Assembly: GCA_013792055.1 (NCBI GenBank)
Contig: VMSQ01000027.1
Coordinates: forward strand, 1-35,890
Origin: Desulfobacteraceae bacterium
GTDB taxonomy: Bacteria; Desulfobacterota; Desulfobacteria; Desulfobacterales; ETH-SRB1
Length of the DNA stretch: 35,890 bases
Direction: 5' to 3'
The position numbers and the translations under genes are program-made. The number at the start of each line of letters is the position of its first letter. Within the stretch, counting starts at the first letter, position 1. The notes beneath the pieces were generated by a model. It did not search any database, had not been told where the DNA came from, and saw nothing but the letters and a program-made list of their open reading frames with translations. This document shows positions 27,399 to 35,890 of the stretch, in pieces.

Positions 27399-28487
27399 AT
27401 GTTGACGGCAAAAAAAAATTACGAGTTTGAGCCTGATTATGCGATTCCTCCGGGAGAAACACTTAAAGAGGTTATGGAATCCCTGGATATGACTCAGAAA
27501 GAACTGGCCATTCGCACCGGCCTGACAGTCCAGTCGTTTAACCGCATTTTTAAAGGGGAGCAGCCTATTACATATGATACCGCCAACAAACTTGAACTGG
27601 CCACCGGGGTTCTGGCACGCATGTGGAACAATCTGGAGGCTCAATACCAGGAACAGTTGGCAAAAATTAAGGAGCGTAAACTGCTTGAGGCCGATCTTGA
27701 CTGGCTGAAGACAATTCCCACACATGAGCTTATCCAGCGTGACGCGATTGAGAACCAAAAGAATAAGGCGTTACTCCTAAGGGAAGTACTAAAGTTCTAT
27801 GGTGTTAGTAGTGTTGCAGCTTGGCGGGATATTTGGTCAAAACCGGCAGTGGCGGCGCGGCGCTCACAGTGTTTTGAGACCTGTCCGGGTCCGGCATCTG
27901 CGTGGATCAGGCTTGGTGAAATTCAGGCGCGTCAGATTGATTGCGGGCAGTTTGACAAAAACAAATTCGCCAGGGCCGTAAAAGCAATTCATTTGCTGAC
28001 TGTTAAAGATTCTAAAGAATTTGTTCCTGAGATGCTTTCACTGTGCGCAGAATCCGGTGTTGCCTTGTCCCTGGTTCCGGAAATGAAAAAAGTGCCTTGG
28101 CATGGCGCAACAAAATGGCTGTCTGCATCCAAGGCGATGATTCTGCTGAATCTTCGAGGCAAGATGGAAGATCAGTTCTGGTTTTCTTTTTTTCACGAAG
28201 CAGGCCATGTCCTTCATGACAGCAAAAAAGACCTCTATATCAACGATGGAAGCAGCGATGATCCGCGTGAGCACAAGGCAAATGAATTTGCTGCTGAAAC
28301 ACTCATACCGAGTGACCGAAACCCTGAAATTGCTTCGTTGCGGGCAAAAGCGGATGTAATTCGCCTTGCGGCCGAGCTTAAGATTTCCACTGGAATTGTA
28401 GCCGGGCGTTTCCAGCGCCTGACCGAAAAGTGGAGCTATTTCAACGGGCTTAAACGCAGATTTGAGTGGGTAGTCACCAATAAATGA
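27399..28487 (+). CDS. HigA-type XRE helix-turn-helix fused to ImmA/IrrE metallopeptidase
   Basis: 362 aa. The N-terminal XRE domain (about 15-75) reads ETLKEVMESLDMTQKELAIRT, and the C-terminal ImmA/IrrE domain has the zinc motif HEAGH at 266-270 and the third ligand in the NEFAAE segment near residue 296. Such proteins act as antitoxins or repressors with peptidase control. A GGGAG site at about 27386-27390 precedes ATG 27399. Its likely toxin partner upstream is reduced to a C-terminal fragment, so this antitoxin appears orphaned. Confidence 0.88.
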   Translation: MLTAKKNYEFEPDYAIPPGETLKEVMESLDMTQKELAIRTGLTVQSFNRIFKGEQPITYDTANKLELATGVLARMWNNLEAQYQEQLAKIKERKLLEADLDWLKTIPTHELIQRDAIENQKNKALLLREVLKFYGVSSVAAWRDIWSKPAVAARRSQCFETCPGPASAWIRLGEIQARQIDCGQFDKNKFARAVKAIHLLTVKDSKEFVPEMLSLCAESGVALSLVPEMKKVPWHGATKWLSASKAMILLNLRGKMEDQFWFSFFHEAGHVLHDSKKDLYINDGSSDDPREHKANEFAAETLIPSDRNPEIASLRAKADVIRLAAELKISTGIVAGRFQRLTEKWSYFNGLKRRFEWVVTNK

Positions 28488-31803: not shown

Positions 31804-33933
31804 ATGAATTATCGTGATCGATCGGAATGTGGGCGATTAAATTTATCTGATGTTGGACGGCAGGTCCATTTATTTGGCTGGGTTGATTCTTTGCGCGATC
31901 ATGGCGATGTGCTGTTTATTCATCTGCGGGATCGAAGCGGCATTGTTCAGGTTGTTTTCAGCCCTGAATTTACAGATAAAGCAATTTGCAGCCTGGCTGC
32001 CGGCCTTAGAAATGAATTTTGCATTAATGTTTCAGGACAGGTGGTTAAGCGAGCCGAGGGTACGGAAAATCCCTGTATCGAAACAGGGAAGCTGGAAGTC
32101 ATTACAACCAGCATGACAATTTTCAGTAAATCAAGCGCCCTGCCGTTTTCCATTTCCGAAAAGGCCATGCTTGCCGGAACCGATAACCCTGTTCATCAAT
32201 CAGTATCAGTGGCAGTATCAGAGGATTTGAGGCTTCAGTACCGTTATCTTGATCTGCGCCGGCCGACCATGCAGAATTTTATCATCAAACGGCACAAAAT
32301 CAACAAATGTATCCGGAAGTATCTTGATGACAAGGGATTTATAGACATAGAAACACCGATGCTTACCAAAAGTACTCCCGAAGGTGCCCGTGATTACCTG
32401 GTACCAAGCCGGCATTTCCCGAAACGGTTTTATGCCTTGCCCCAGTCACCCCAGTTGTTTAAACAGCTTTTAATGATCAGCGGTTTTGAAAAATATTACC
32501 AGATCACCCGCTGTTTTCGAGATGAAGATCTACGCCCCAATCGCCAGCCCGAATTTACCCAGCTGGACATTGAGGTTTCTTTTATTGATGAGACTTTTAT
32601 CTATGAGCTCATCGAAGAGCTGCTTATACGGATTTTTGAAATCAACGGCATAACACTTCCCCGGCCATTTCCATATATTACATGGCAAGAGGCCATGGAA
32701 AGCACTGGAACCGACAGGCCGGATTTGCGCTTTGGTTTAAGATTTGTTGAAGCCACCGACATTTTCACTAATACCAGTTACACAATTTTCAAACAGATTC
32801 TGCAGCGCGGCGGGCATATCAAAGGTATCAATGTCAAGGGCGCATCAGAGCAGTTGAGTAAAAATATTCTTCAAAATGAATATGCAAAGGAAATTGTGCC
32901 TGGTTTCGGAGCCAAGGGAATGACATGGATGCGTATAACCAATGGAAAGCTGGACTCCAATATCGTGCAGTTTTTTACTGAAGATGAAAAACGCCTGATA
33001 ATAGAACGCTTTGGCGCTGGAGACGGAGATGTGATTTTAATGATTGCCGATCCATCCCGCAGCCTGGTGAATAATGTTTTAGGCCAGCTCCGGCTTCACG
33101 TGGCCAACCGTCTGGGGATGATTCCCCAGGACAGCTACTGCCCGGTCTGGGTTACGGACTTTCCGCTTTTCGAGATGACTGAAAGCGGTATTACTTCCAG
33201 CCATCACCCCTTTACAGCTCCGGATCGAACCGACTTTGATCCAAAAGATATGGAAGCGCTTTTGTCTTTAAAGTCGCGCGCCTATGATATAGTTATTAAC
33301 GGAGAGGAGCTTGGCGGCGGCAGTATCCGTATTCATGAAAAAAAACTTCAGCATAAGATTTTTCAGGCACTGGCGCTTTCCGAGAAGGAAGTGGAGGAAA
33401 AATTCGGGTTTTTTTTAAATGCATTTGATTATGGACCCCCGCCACATGGAGGGCTTGCACTCGGCATGGACAGGGTAATCGCCATGATCCTGAAAACACC
33501 GTCGATCCGTGAAATCACGGCTTTTCCAAAAAATCGCAGTGCTTTTTGTCCTTTGACTCAGGCACCTTCCGAAGTCGATTATGAGCAAATAGCCGAATTG
33601 GGCCTGCTTGATATTAAAGGAAAAGAAGAACTTCCCGGTGCCTCACAACAAAAGGAACAGATAGACAATCTTTCCTGGTTGTCGCGTATTGGCATACTGG
33701 AAGGCGAGCGTCCTGCAATCAAAGCTGTTGTTGCGGATGCAGTCAAGATGGCCGGACATGTGAATAAAAAAGCAGGTTCAAGCGAACCGATGTTTTCGGT
33801 TTTTGCCCTGAAAAACCGTTTCAGGGACAACACATCTTCCAAAATCAGCAACAAGGTCGAAAACAGGGATCTTTTTAAAAATGCACCTGCTGTAAAGGGC
33901 GATTTTTTCAAGGTGGACACAATTCTGGAGTAA
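31804..33933 (+). CDS. aspS: Aspartyl-tRNA synthetase fused to GatC
   Basis: 709 aa. Residues 1-604 are a bacterial AspRS: anticodon-binding OB domain, class II motif 2 (FRDEDLRPNRQPEFTQLD at 238-255), a GAD insert and motif 3 (GLALGMDRV at 550-558). Normal AspRS ends about APSEVD; here about 95 more residues follow. Residues 617-709 match GatC: DNLSWLSRIGILEGE (GatC WLARLELSEEE), RFRDN (GatC FREDV) and the ending LFKNAP then FFKVDTILE (GatC LxNAP-FFKVPxIxE). His33 and Gly86 match the H31/G82 positions of non-discriminating AspRS. Predicted to charge tRNA-Asp and tRNA-Asn with Asp. Confidence 0.92.
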   Translation: MNYRDRSECGRLNLSDVGRQVHLFGWVDSLRDHGDVLFIHLRDRSGIVQVVFSPEFTDKAICSLAAGLRNEFCINVSGQVVKRAEGTENPCIETGKLEVITTSMTIFSKSSALPFSISEKAMLAGTDNPVHQSVSVAVSEDLRLQYRYLDLRRPTMQNFIIKRHKINKCIRKYLDDKGFIDIETPMLTKSTPEGARDYLVPSRHFPKRFYALPQSPQLFKQLLMISGFEKYYQITRCFRDEDLRPNRQPEFTQLDIEVSFIDETFIYELIEELLIRIFEINGITLPRPFPYITWQEAMESTGTDRPDLRFGLRFVEATDIFTNTSYTIFKQILQRGGHIKGINVKGASEQLSKNILQNEYAKEIVPGFGAKGMTWMRITNGKLDSNIVQFFTEDEKRLIIERFGAGDGDVILMIADPSRSLVNNVLGQLRLHVANRLGMIPQDSYCPVWVTDFPLFEMTESGITSSHHPFTAPDRTDFDPKDMEALLSLKSRAYDIVINGEELGGGSIRIHEKKLQHKIFQALALSEKEVEEKFGFFLNAFDYGPPPHGGLALGMDRVIAMILKTPSIREITAFPKNRSAFCPLTQAPSEVDYEQIAELGLLDIKGKEELPGASQQKEQIDNLSWLSRIGILEGERPAIKAVVADAVKMAGHVNKKAGSSEPMFSVFALKNRFRDNTSSKISNKVENRDLFKNAPAVKGDFFKVDTILE

Positions 33934-33945
33934 AGAGGAGTTTGC

Positions 33946-35199
33946 ATGCAAGAAACAATTTTCAGTTATATGGATCCGGCGCCTCCATGCGCGTCTGAAA
34001 ACAACATACTTACAGGATTGACCGTAGCAATACAGCCGAACCTCTCTGTCCGGGGATGGCCGGCACAGGCCGGTTCCAGAGCGCTTGAAGGATTTACTGC
34101 CATTGAAGATGCCACCGTTGTCGAGCGGCTTCGACAGGCCGGGGCAACCATTAAAGGTGCTATATACATGAGTGAACTTGGTCTTGGTTTAACAGGCAAC
34201 ACAGGCGCCGACGCTCTTAAAAATAATAAAGCGGATATTGTATTAATAACCGATAACCTGGGTGAATCACGTGTTTCCGCATGTGCTGCCGGTGTTTTTG
34301 GATTCAAGCCCAGCTATGGAATTGTATCCCGTTTTGGTCTGATCGGCCTGATCCCGTCAATGGAATGCTGTGGGATTCTGGCAAAAAAACTTGCAGATGT
34401 TTCCAGGGTAATGAGTGTGATCGCGGGAAATGACAACAGGGATTTGTCCATGCCTGATTTTGGGCCCGATTTTGGGCCTGAATCCGGGTTTGAATTTGAG
34501 TCTGGGCTTAAACTGCCTGATTTTTCACGGGTGTTTGAAGCAAAAAAACCGGCCCGCTCCTGCGGCGTGATCAAGGAATGCCTTGAAATCATGGAAAAGG
34601 ACGAACAAAGCGCCTATGAGGCGGCAATATCAAAACTTGCCAAACGCGGCATTCAACCCATTGAAGTCAGTTTAGAAGATTTTAACATGGTACGGACAGC
34701 GCATAATATAATCGGCGCCGTTGAGGCGTCATCCAGCGCCGGTAAATATGACAGCGTACGCTATGGGCACCGGGCAGCAGGCAGTAAAAACTGGAATGAA
34801 ATGTATCTTAATTCCCGCGCCGAATCTTTTGGCATGCCGATCAAATCTTATCTTTTTCAGGGAGCATATTTCCAGCACGAAAACTATAACGCTTTTGTTG
34901 ACGCGGCCCGTATTCGAAGACGTCTTTCAGCAGGGCTGGACCAGGCGCTGGAAAATGCGGATTTTATCATGCTTCCCACGATACGCAAGGCGATTGATCC
35001 TTTTACGGCAGACACAGTCAATGAAATTTATGACAGCTTTCCATGGACGCCAATCGCAAATATTACCGGGCATCCGGCCATTACGCTGCCGAATATGCTA
35101 ACGTGCAAGGATATGGATCTTGGAATGCAAATTATCGGCCCACGCTTTAAAGATGCAAACATTCTTTCCCTGTCAGCCCAACTTAAGGATCAGGCATAA
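33946..35199 (+). CDS. GatA-like amidase-signature protein, catalytically degenerate
   Basis: 417 aa against about 485 for GatA. The amidase fold is recognisable: GLTVAI, FGFKPSYGIVSRFGLIGLIPS, KYDSVRYGHRA and ANITGHPAITLPN. But the triad is gone. The catalytic Lys of AIKDN is Gln30 (AIQPN). The GGSSGGSA loop with the cis-Ser is deleted near residue 90. The nucleophile Ser of DTGGSIRQP aligns with Glu107 (DNLGESRVS). About 45 N-terminal residues are also missing. A linker of PDFGPDFGPESG-type repeats lies at 170-190. The frame is open and GAGGAG precedes ATG 33946, so it looks maintained; a structural role in GatCAB is inferred. Confidence 0.85.
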   Translation: MQETIFSYMDPAPPCASENNILTGLTVAIQPNLSVRGWPAQAGSRALEGFTAIEDATVVERLRQAGATIKGAIYMSELGLGLTGNTGADALKNNKADIVLITDNLGESRVSACAAGVFGFKPSYGIVSRFGLIGLIPSMECCGILAKKLADVSRVMSVIAGNDNRDLSMPDFGPDFGPESGFEFESGLKLPDFSRVFEAKKPARSCGVIKECLEIMEKDEQSAYEAAISKLAKRGIQPIEVSLEDFNMVRTAHNIIGAVEASSSAGKYDSVRYGHRAAGSKNWNEMYLNSRAESFGMPIKSYLFQGAYFQHENYNAFVDAARIRRRLSAGLDQALENADFIMLPTIRKAIDPFTADTVNEIYDSFPWTPIANITGHPAITLPNMLTCKDMDLGMQIIGPRFKDANILSLSAQLKDQA

Positions 35200-35213
35200 G
35201 GAGAATACACACT

Positions 35214-35890
35214 ATGGCTTACGAAGCTGTCATAGGTCTTGAAATACATGTTCAACTCAATTGTACCAGCAAAATGTTTTGCGACTGTCCAAACAGACCC
35301 GGAGATGATCCGAATACGAATATCTGCCCGATCTGCCTCTGGCTGCCGGGCGCTGTGCCTATGTTCAGCATGGAAACCCTTGAAAAGGCCACGCTGGCCT
35401 GTCTGGGACTGAACTGCGAGATTCAGCCGCAAAGCACATTTGATCAGAAGGTTTATTATTATCCTGATCTGCCTAAAGGATTTCAGCTTTCCCAGCACCA
35501 CATGCCCCTGGCCAAGGGCGGGTATGTGGAAATTATCGATGAAAATAAAAAACCCGTAAAACTTCGGCTGCATCACGTTCATATGGAAGAAGACGTTGCC
35601 AAGCTCGTCCATGAAACCGAAGGCCGCACTCCGATCAGTCTGGTTGACTTTAACAGGGCAGGAACCCCTTTGATTGAAATTGTTACCGAACCGTGCATAC
35701 GAAATCCCCATGACGCCATGGAATTTTTAAAAACGCTGCGACGCGAAATTCGATATACAGGAAGTGCCGAGTGCAGCATGGAACAAGGAACCATGAGATG
35801 TGACGCAAATATTTCCCTGCGGCCTGAAGGTAGCGACGAGCTTAATACCAAGGTCGAAATCAAAAACATGAATTCCCTCCACCATGTCGG
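35214..35890 (+). CDS. gatB: Aspartyl/glutamyl-tRNA amidotransferase subunit B, N-terminal part
   Basis: The first 225 codons; the gene runs out of the window. GatB phosphorylates the side chain of misacylated Asp- or Glu-tRNA and transfers ammonia. Motifs are normal: YEAVIGLEIHVQL, zinc cysteines FCDC and CPIC, YYYPDLPKGFQLSQ, VHMEEDVAKL, LVDFNRAGTPLIEIVTEP and CDANISLRP. AAGGAG lies 10 nt before ATG 35214, 14 nt after the gatA-like stop. Unlike its neighbour, this subunit keeps its key residues as far as visible. Confidence 0.95.
   Translation, partial: MAYEAVIGLEIHVQLNCTSKMFCDCPNRPGDDPNTNICPICLWLPGAVPMFSMETLEKATLACLGLNCEIQPQSTFDQKVYYYPDLPKGFQLSQHHMPLAKGGYVEIIDENKKPVKLRLHHVHMEEDVAKLVHETEGRTPISLVDFNRAGTPLIEIVTEPCIRNPHDAMEFLKTLRREIRYTGSAECSMEQGTMRCDANISLRPEGSDELNTKVEIKNMNSLHHV

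Follow-up and report, generated by a model that had tools for sequence, protein, structure and literature searches.

A GatA relative without a glutaminase active site is retained in an aspS-gatC, gatA and gatB cassette of Desulfobacterota

Results

Gene content of the locus

The window, i.e., the whole 35,890-nucleotide stretch of DNA analyzed here (contig VMSQ01000027.1 of Desulfobacteraceae bacterium assembly GCA_013792055.1), ends in a three-gene cassette. A gatA relative is preceded by an aspartyl-tRNA synthetase (AspRS) gene fused to gatC and followed by gatB, and we refer to its product and that of the following gene as cassette GatA and cassette GatB.

31804..33933, forward strand: aspS-gatC fusion, 709 amino acids, with a bacterial-type AspRS, a GAD domain and a GatC-like C-terminal tail (Pfam tRNA-synt_2, GAD and a weak GatC match)
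33935..33940, forward strand: GAGGAG, ribosome-binding site of cassette gatA, five bases upstream of the gene (sequence reading)
33946..35199, forward strand: cassette gatA, a glutaminase-dead GatA relative, 417 amino acids (open reading frame, Pfam, NCBIfam and alignment to Staphylococcus aureus GatA)
35214..35890, forward strand: cassette gatB, first 225 codons, cut by the contig end

An earlier sequence-only reading of this DNA had described gatA as an open frame with a good ribosome site between the fusion and gatB, and this description held: the frame opens with ATG, runs for 417 codons, starts 12 bases after the fusion and ends 14 bases before gatB. The only Pfam match of the protein is Amidase (PF01425; 185.7 bits). 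Its closest NCBIfam relationship is to GatA (TIGR00132), with a score of 244.5 bits where the cut-off is 481.1, and its relatives likewise stay under this cut-off (158 to 215 bits). Membership in TIGR00132 is supported by homology over the fold and by the genetic link to gatC and gatB but not by the score, the catalytic triad or the glutamine ligands. Elsewhere in the window, an open reading frame at 27399-28487 begins with what resembles a helix-turn-helix and carries an HEAGH motif of the HExxH type; by reading only, it is reminiscent of an XRE/ImmA-type regulator-metallopeptidase.

Loss of the amidase triad and the glutamine pocket

To compare active sites, we aligned 41 cassette GatAs with 24 canonical GatAs taken from genomes in the order that carry the cassette, using S. 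aureus GatA as the reference. Five sites of the window gene are altered.

34033..34035, forward strand: Gln30 codon, replacing the catalytic Lys (S. aureus Lys79); Lys in 24/24 canonical GatAs, Gln in 34/41 and Lys in 0/41 cassette GatAs
34206..34207, forward strand: approximate site, after about Gly87, of the deleted cis-Ser loop (PGGSSGGS; S. aureus Ser154); deleted in 41/41 cassette GatAs
34264..34266, forward strand: Glu107 codon, replacing the nucleophile Ser (S. aureus Ser178); Glu in 41/41 cassette GatAs, Ser in 24/24 canonical GatAs
34849..34851, forward strand: Tyr302 codon, replacing the glutamine-carboxylate-binding Arg (S. aureus Arg358); Tyr, Phe or Leu in 40/40 cassette GatAs reaching the site
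35038..35040, forward strand: Phe365 codon, replacing the glutamine-amide-binding Asp (S. aureus Asp425); Phe in 36/41 and Asp in 0/41 cassette GatAs

In the alignment, the Lys-cisSer-Ser triad is complete in all 24 canonical GatAs and in none of the 41 cassette GatAs. The claims that Lys had become Gln30, that the GGSSGGSA loop with the cis-Ser was deleted and that the nucleophile Ser aligned with Glu107 were all borne out, with the same sites altered in 41/41 relatives; a triad conserved at shifted positions, which would have refuted them, was not present in the sequence of any of the 41. The glutamine pocket is lost as well, a point that had not been made before. In yeast GatA, the Arg binds the carboxyl group of glutamine, and the Asp binds its amide group (PMC4027206). 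Since the triad, the loop and the glutamine ligands are gone in every member, cassette GatA can, by its sequence, neither act as a classical amidase nor hold glutamine in the established manner; a glutaminase's chemistry is lost, and so is its means of binding the substrate.

The protein is not featureless. Among 76 conserved columns of cassette GatAs, 45 hold the residue that is invariant in canonical GatAs (scaffold), whereas another residue has become fixed in 15. The pocket has been rewritten, with Glu107 and His253 invariant and residues 302 and 365 aromatic. An AlphaFold model built from only three sequences was unusable (pLDDT, 28), and the loss of the triad thus rests on sequence alignment.

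Distribution and selection

We found the cassette in 41 sampled genomes representing 21 family codes: 26 of 291 genomes in the order sample and 17 of 395 in the phylum sample, of which two had already been counted, adding 15. In the profile search for the family, run with a limit of 1e-70, every match above the limit scored 5e-158 or better, which makes the cassette GatA family a discrete one without intermediates in our sample. Full-length frames (at least 380 codons) were present in 38 of the 41 genomes. Pairwise dN/dS ratios were 0.17 to 0.35 for cassette gatA, 0.05 to 0.25 for cassette gatB and 0.07 to 0.19 for the fusion; cassette GatA is constrained, yet more loosely than its partners in nearly all pairs. 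These ratios, well under 1, indicate that cassette GatA is under purifying selection. The search for the same operon in relatives, which the sequence-only reading had put forward as a check, also yielded no relative with an intact GatA at this locus among the 41, contrary to what a recent pseudogene would predict. Most sampled members of the source genome's family lack the cassette. That the gene is a recent pseudogene, an assembly error or part of a mis-binned contig can be set aside with hardly any reservation: the source genome is fragmented (340 contigs) and the cassette was not found in the other sampled members of its genus, but the identical losses in 41 homologs, 38 of them full length, the purifying selection and the tetranucleotide usage of the flank and the adjoining contig C192, which matches the genome's other contigs (a measure on which related genera are not far behind), all speak against it.

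The AspRS-GatC fusion and cassette GatB

The best full-length match of the fusion is NCBIfam PRK12820 (NF009460), with 1186.7 bits and thus below the cut-off of 1379; its residues 1 to 709 match positions 18 to 723 of the 723 in the model, so that the architecture agrees over the full length and the score falls short. The fused AspRSs keep 204 of 265 canonical invariant columns, including the catalytic residues that we checked. We take His and Gly at two specificity positions of the anticodon domain to be the mark of a non-discriminating AspRS. His is found in all fused AspRSs that cover the site and Gly in nearly all, and the canonical AspRSs of the same hosts also have His and mostly Gly. 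AspRS specificity was therefore rejected as the reason for a second set, as both types carry much the same signature. Two genomes, G095 (L223) and G031 (L224), have an extra fused-type AspRS outside the cassette that is 66 to 73% identical to the fusions and ends before the GatC tail.

An exact overlap of 141 bp joins the contig end to contig C192, where the rest of cassette gatB lies; the complete protein has 477 amino acids. Nearly complete cassette GatBs reach 463 to 522 bits against TIGR00133, above the cut-off of 314.8. They keep the catalytic residues, the cysteine pairs and the tRNA-binding tail, and 106 of 153 canonical invariant columns, including Glu10, His12, Glu125 and Asp192. In the tree, the cassette GatBs group together (SH-aLRT, 100), none of the canonical GatBs of these genomes falls among them, and the stem leading to the group measures 2.1 changes per column; this was a quick tree with long branches, so the outer position of the group is uncertain. 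Cassette GatBs (L065-L093 and L208-L222) are without the DYRYFPDPD loop, a conserved element of canonical GatBs.

The cassette as a unit

The order aspS-gatC, gatA, gatB is maintained in nearly all genomes with contigs reaching far enough, while the genes on either side mostly vary. Distances among the three cassette genes are strongly correlated (r = 0.84 to 0.94), compared with 0.51 to 0.61 against the canonical gatA and gatB of the same genomes; as judged from these distances, the three genes share one history that is distinct from that of the canonical genes. Between the source genome and G011, which belongs to another genus, dS is 0.23 to 0.29 for the cassette and 2.9 for canonical gatA, a difference that points to horizontal transfer. 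Higher GC content was rejected as a sign of transfer, the cassette being on average 5% GC-richer than its flanks across hosts.

No dedicated tRNA was found near the cassette (one tRNA-Glu among 41 loci), nor was a conserved biosynthetic gene found beside it among the neighbors compared. A search of viral contigs found no relatives of cassette GatA, a plasmid search returned only GatA-like matches of about 30% identity, and a PADLOC defense-system search gave no match. The cassette is broken in two genomes. In G262 (L086), the reading frame of the fusion is interrupted and gatB contains an in-frame TGA; in G012 (L075), a deletion has connected the beginning of gatA with the end of gatB.

The canonical pathway in cassette hosts

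The source genome also carries canonical gatC-gatA (contig C51), gatB (C139) and aspS (C95), together with asnS, glnS and two asnB-like genes. The proposed search for another gatA, asnS, asnB and glnS thus found an intact gatA, asnS and glnS and, for asnB, the two asnB-like genes. Of the ammonia sources that the sequence-only reading had considered (free ammonium, another amidase or a second GatA), the second GatA does exist, in an intact gatC-gatA on another contig; which source is used is not established. In the order, asnS is present in 25 of the 26 genomes with the cassette, and an intact canonical gatA likewise in 25 (the gatA exception is 80% complete); glnS was found in 37 of all 41 cassette genomes. 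Compensation for a missing asnB was rejected, since asnB was absent (at threshold) from 17/41 cassette genomes and 3/12 controls (P = 0.5). From the combined evidence, we infer as the best reading that the cassette is an accessory element that moves horizontally and, in most hosts, duplicates what canonical GatCAB, AsnRS and GlnRS already provide.

One host departs from this pattern. In G172 (L069 and L184), estimated to be 100% complete, no canonical aspS or gatB was detected, and AspRS and GatB are encoded by the cassette alone. An intact canonical gatC-gatA is present, followed by mutL and then by other genes where G247 has gatB. If this loss is real, AspRS and GatB of the cassette have to be catalytically active, and cassette GatB may also accept ammonia from canonical GatA. 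Two less complete genomes, G109 (L091/L187) and G011 (L074/L186), similarly have a canonical gatA and only the cassette AspRS and GatB. Assembly gaps are not excluded in any of the three.

Discussion

A proposed tethered amidotransferase

With confidence that stands at about even, we propose that the cassette is a second, self-tethered Asp-tRNA(Asn) amidotransferase in which the glutaminase became a structural or ammonia-admitting subunit and nitrogen is drawn from free NH4+/NH3; the activity, the complex and the use of ammonia are inferred. Judging by its family, the fused AspRS would be of the non-discriminating type and would charge both tRNA(Asn) and tRNA(Asp) with Asp. The GatC tail would hold cassette GatA and GatB on the synthetase, where GatB would activate the Asp side chain with ATP and amidate it to Asn-tRNA(Asn). 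Cassette GatA, which its sequence marks as no classical amidase, would act as a scaffold. In the uncertain step, the incoming nitrogen would be free NH4+/NH3, possibly admitted by the rewritten GatA pocket. A stable AspRS-GatCAB-tRNA(Asn) transamidosome is suggested only by the predicted AspRS-GatC fusion and the operon.

As the active site and the glutamine pocket are lost and yet the gene is kept by selection, the nitrogen of the cassette must come from elsewhere than cassette GatA. Free ammonium would, by analogy, be the simplest source, because a yeast GatFAB mutant with impaired glutaminase used NH4Cl well, anoxic sediments, should these be the habitat, are often ammonium-rich and human CPS1 offers a precedent; ammonia use itself has not been shown. 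The amidotransferase reading is supported by the loss of triad and ligands in 41/41 cassette GatAs, the selection on them, the catalytic residues kept in cassette GatB and AspRS, the fixed gene order amid changing neighbors, the agreement of distances within the cassette and the cassette-only AspRS and GatB of G172. Against it, a canonical GatA, and with it a possible ammonia supply, is present in nearly all hosts, and the broken cassettes of G262 and G012 imply that it is dispensable in such hosts. The substrate of cassette GatB may also differ, given its long stem and the absence of the DYRYFPDPD loop, and a special role for tRNA(Asn) remains unproven, as both AspRS types carry the same specificity signature.

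More tentatively, the GatA pocket may have been rebuilt, with an invariant Glu for Ser and aromatics for the glutamine ligands, to bind and let in ammonium or some other nucleophile; the cassette would then need no amide donor or would make a different amino acid on tRNA.

Alternative readings

Cassette GatB could instead obtain ammonia from canonical GatC-GatA, through subunit exchange or a larger assembly, leaving cassette GatA as a competing or regulatory subunit. We find this unlikely but not negligible, as all but one of the order's 26 cassette genomes have an intact canonical GatA, the exception being incomplete, and the intact GatA of G172, without canonical gatB, has no GatB partner other than that of the cassette. 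In G172, however, the canonical gatB may merely be missing from the assembly; cassette GatA moves together with its cassette and shows conservation of its own, and a GatC is already supplied by the AspRS fusion.

It is less probable still that the chemistry has changed, with cassette GatB making the acyl phosphate of Asp-tRNA and a nucleophile other than ammonia in the GatA pocket yielding a different modified amino acid on tRNA. The pocket does look remodeled and not simply eroded (Glu107 and His253 are invariant, and 302 and 365 hold aromatics), the GatB stem is long, and AsnRS already provides asparaginyl-tRNA in 25/26 hosts; but the catalytic residues of cassette GatB are ordinary ones, and the cassette has neither a dedicated tRNA nor an accompanying biosynthetic gene conserved beside it. 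We give equally little weight to a noncatalytic complex that binds Asp-tRNA or canonical subunits as a regulator or decoy and so controls the canonical pathway. Hosts that already have the whole pathway, and a cassette that is patchy and sometimes broken, would suit such a role; the strong constraint on the catalytic residues of cassette GatB and AspRS counts against it, as does G172, where only the cassette supplies AspRS and GatB.

Relationship to known systems

To our knowledge, the partner of GatB or GatE in known tRNA-dependent amidotransferases is an active amidase. A form that is widespread and under selection although its amidase is dead would allow what GatA does as a scaffold to be told apart from its chemistry, and one fusion plus two genes would provide a compact natural cassette for work on nitrogen source, subunit exchange and ammonia channeling. 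Our literature search, with most subscription papers outside its scope, found no account of a dead GatA, no paper on the AspRS-GatC fusion and no account of the cassette. What is already known is the fusion, which is catalogued as PRK12820, second AspRSs for tRNA-dependent Asn synthesis (PMC4206432) and the dead glutaminase domain of CPS1.

The cassette shares with canonical GatCAB the same three subunit families, the GatB catalytic residues and tail and the GatA scaffold residues; it differs in that its GatA lacks the triad, the cis-Ser loop and the glutamine ligands, its GatC is fused to AspRS and its GatB forms a separate clade without the DYRYFPDPD loop. PRK12820, a bifunctional AspRS/GatC, has the full-length architecture of the window fusion, which is nevertheless under its cut-off, and the model is silent on an adjacent dead GatA. 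Thermus and Deinococcus likewise have a second, non-discriminating AspRS beside AsnRS, GlnRS and GatCAB that is suited to tRNA-dependent Asn synthesis, but theirs is archaeal-type and works with an ordinary GatCAB, whereas the cassette AspRS is bacterial-type, fused to GatC and accompanied by its own GatA and GatB (PMC4206432). In yeast mitochondrial GatFAB, impairing the glutaminase left or raised NH4Cl-dependent activity, and a mutant with impaired glutaminase used NH4Cl better than the full-length enzyme did; there, however, GatA is intact, and the novelty is that GatF replaces GatC (PMC4027206). The cassette would be a tRNA-level counterpart of the ammonia-using AsnA or CPS1. Human CPS1 keeps a dead glutaminase domain beside an intact synthetase part and uses external ammonia (PMC4655335), and the cassette meets the same logic in sequence, with the glutaminase site lost and the synthetase site kept. 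Fold and substrate are unrelated, and CPS1 has lost a single Cys, whereas cassette GatA has lost the whole site, including the loop (PMC4655335).
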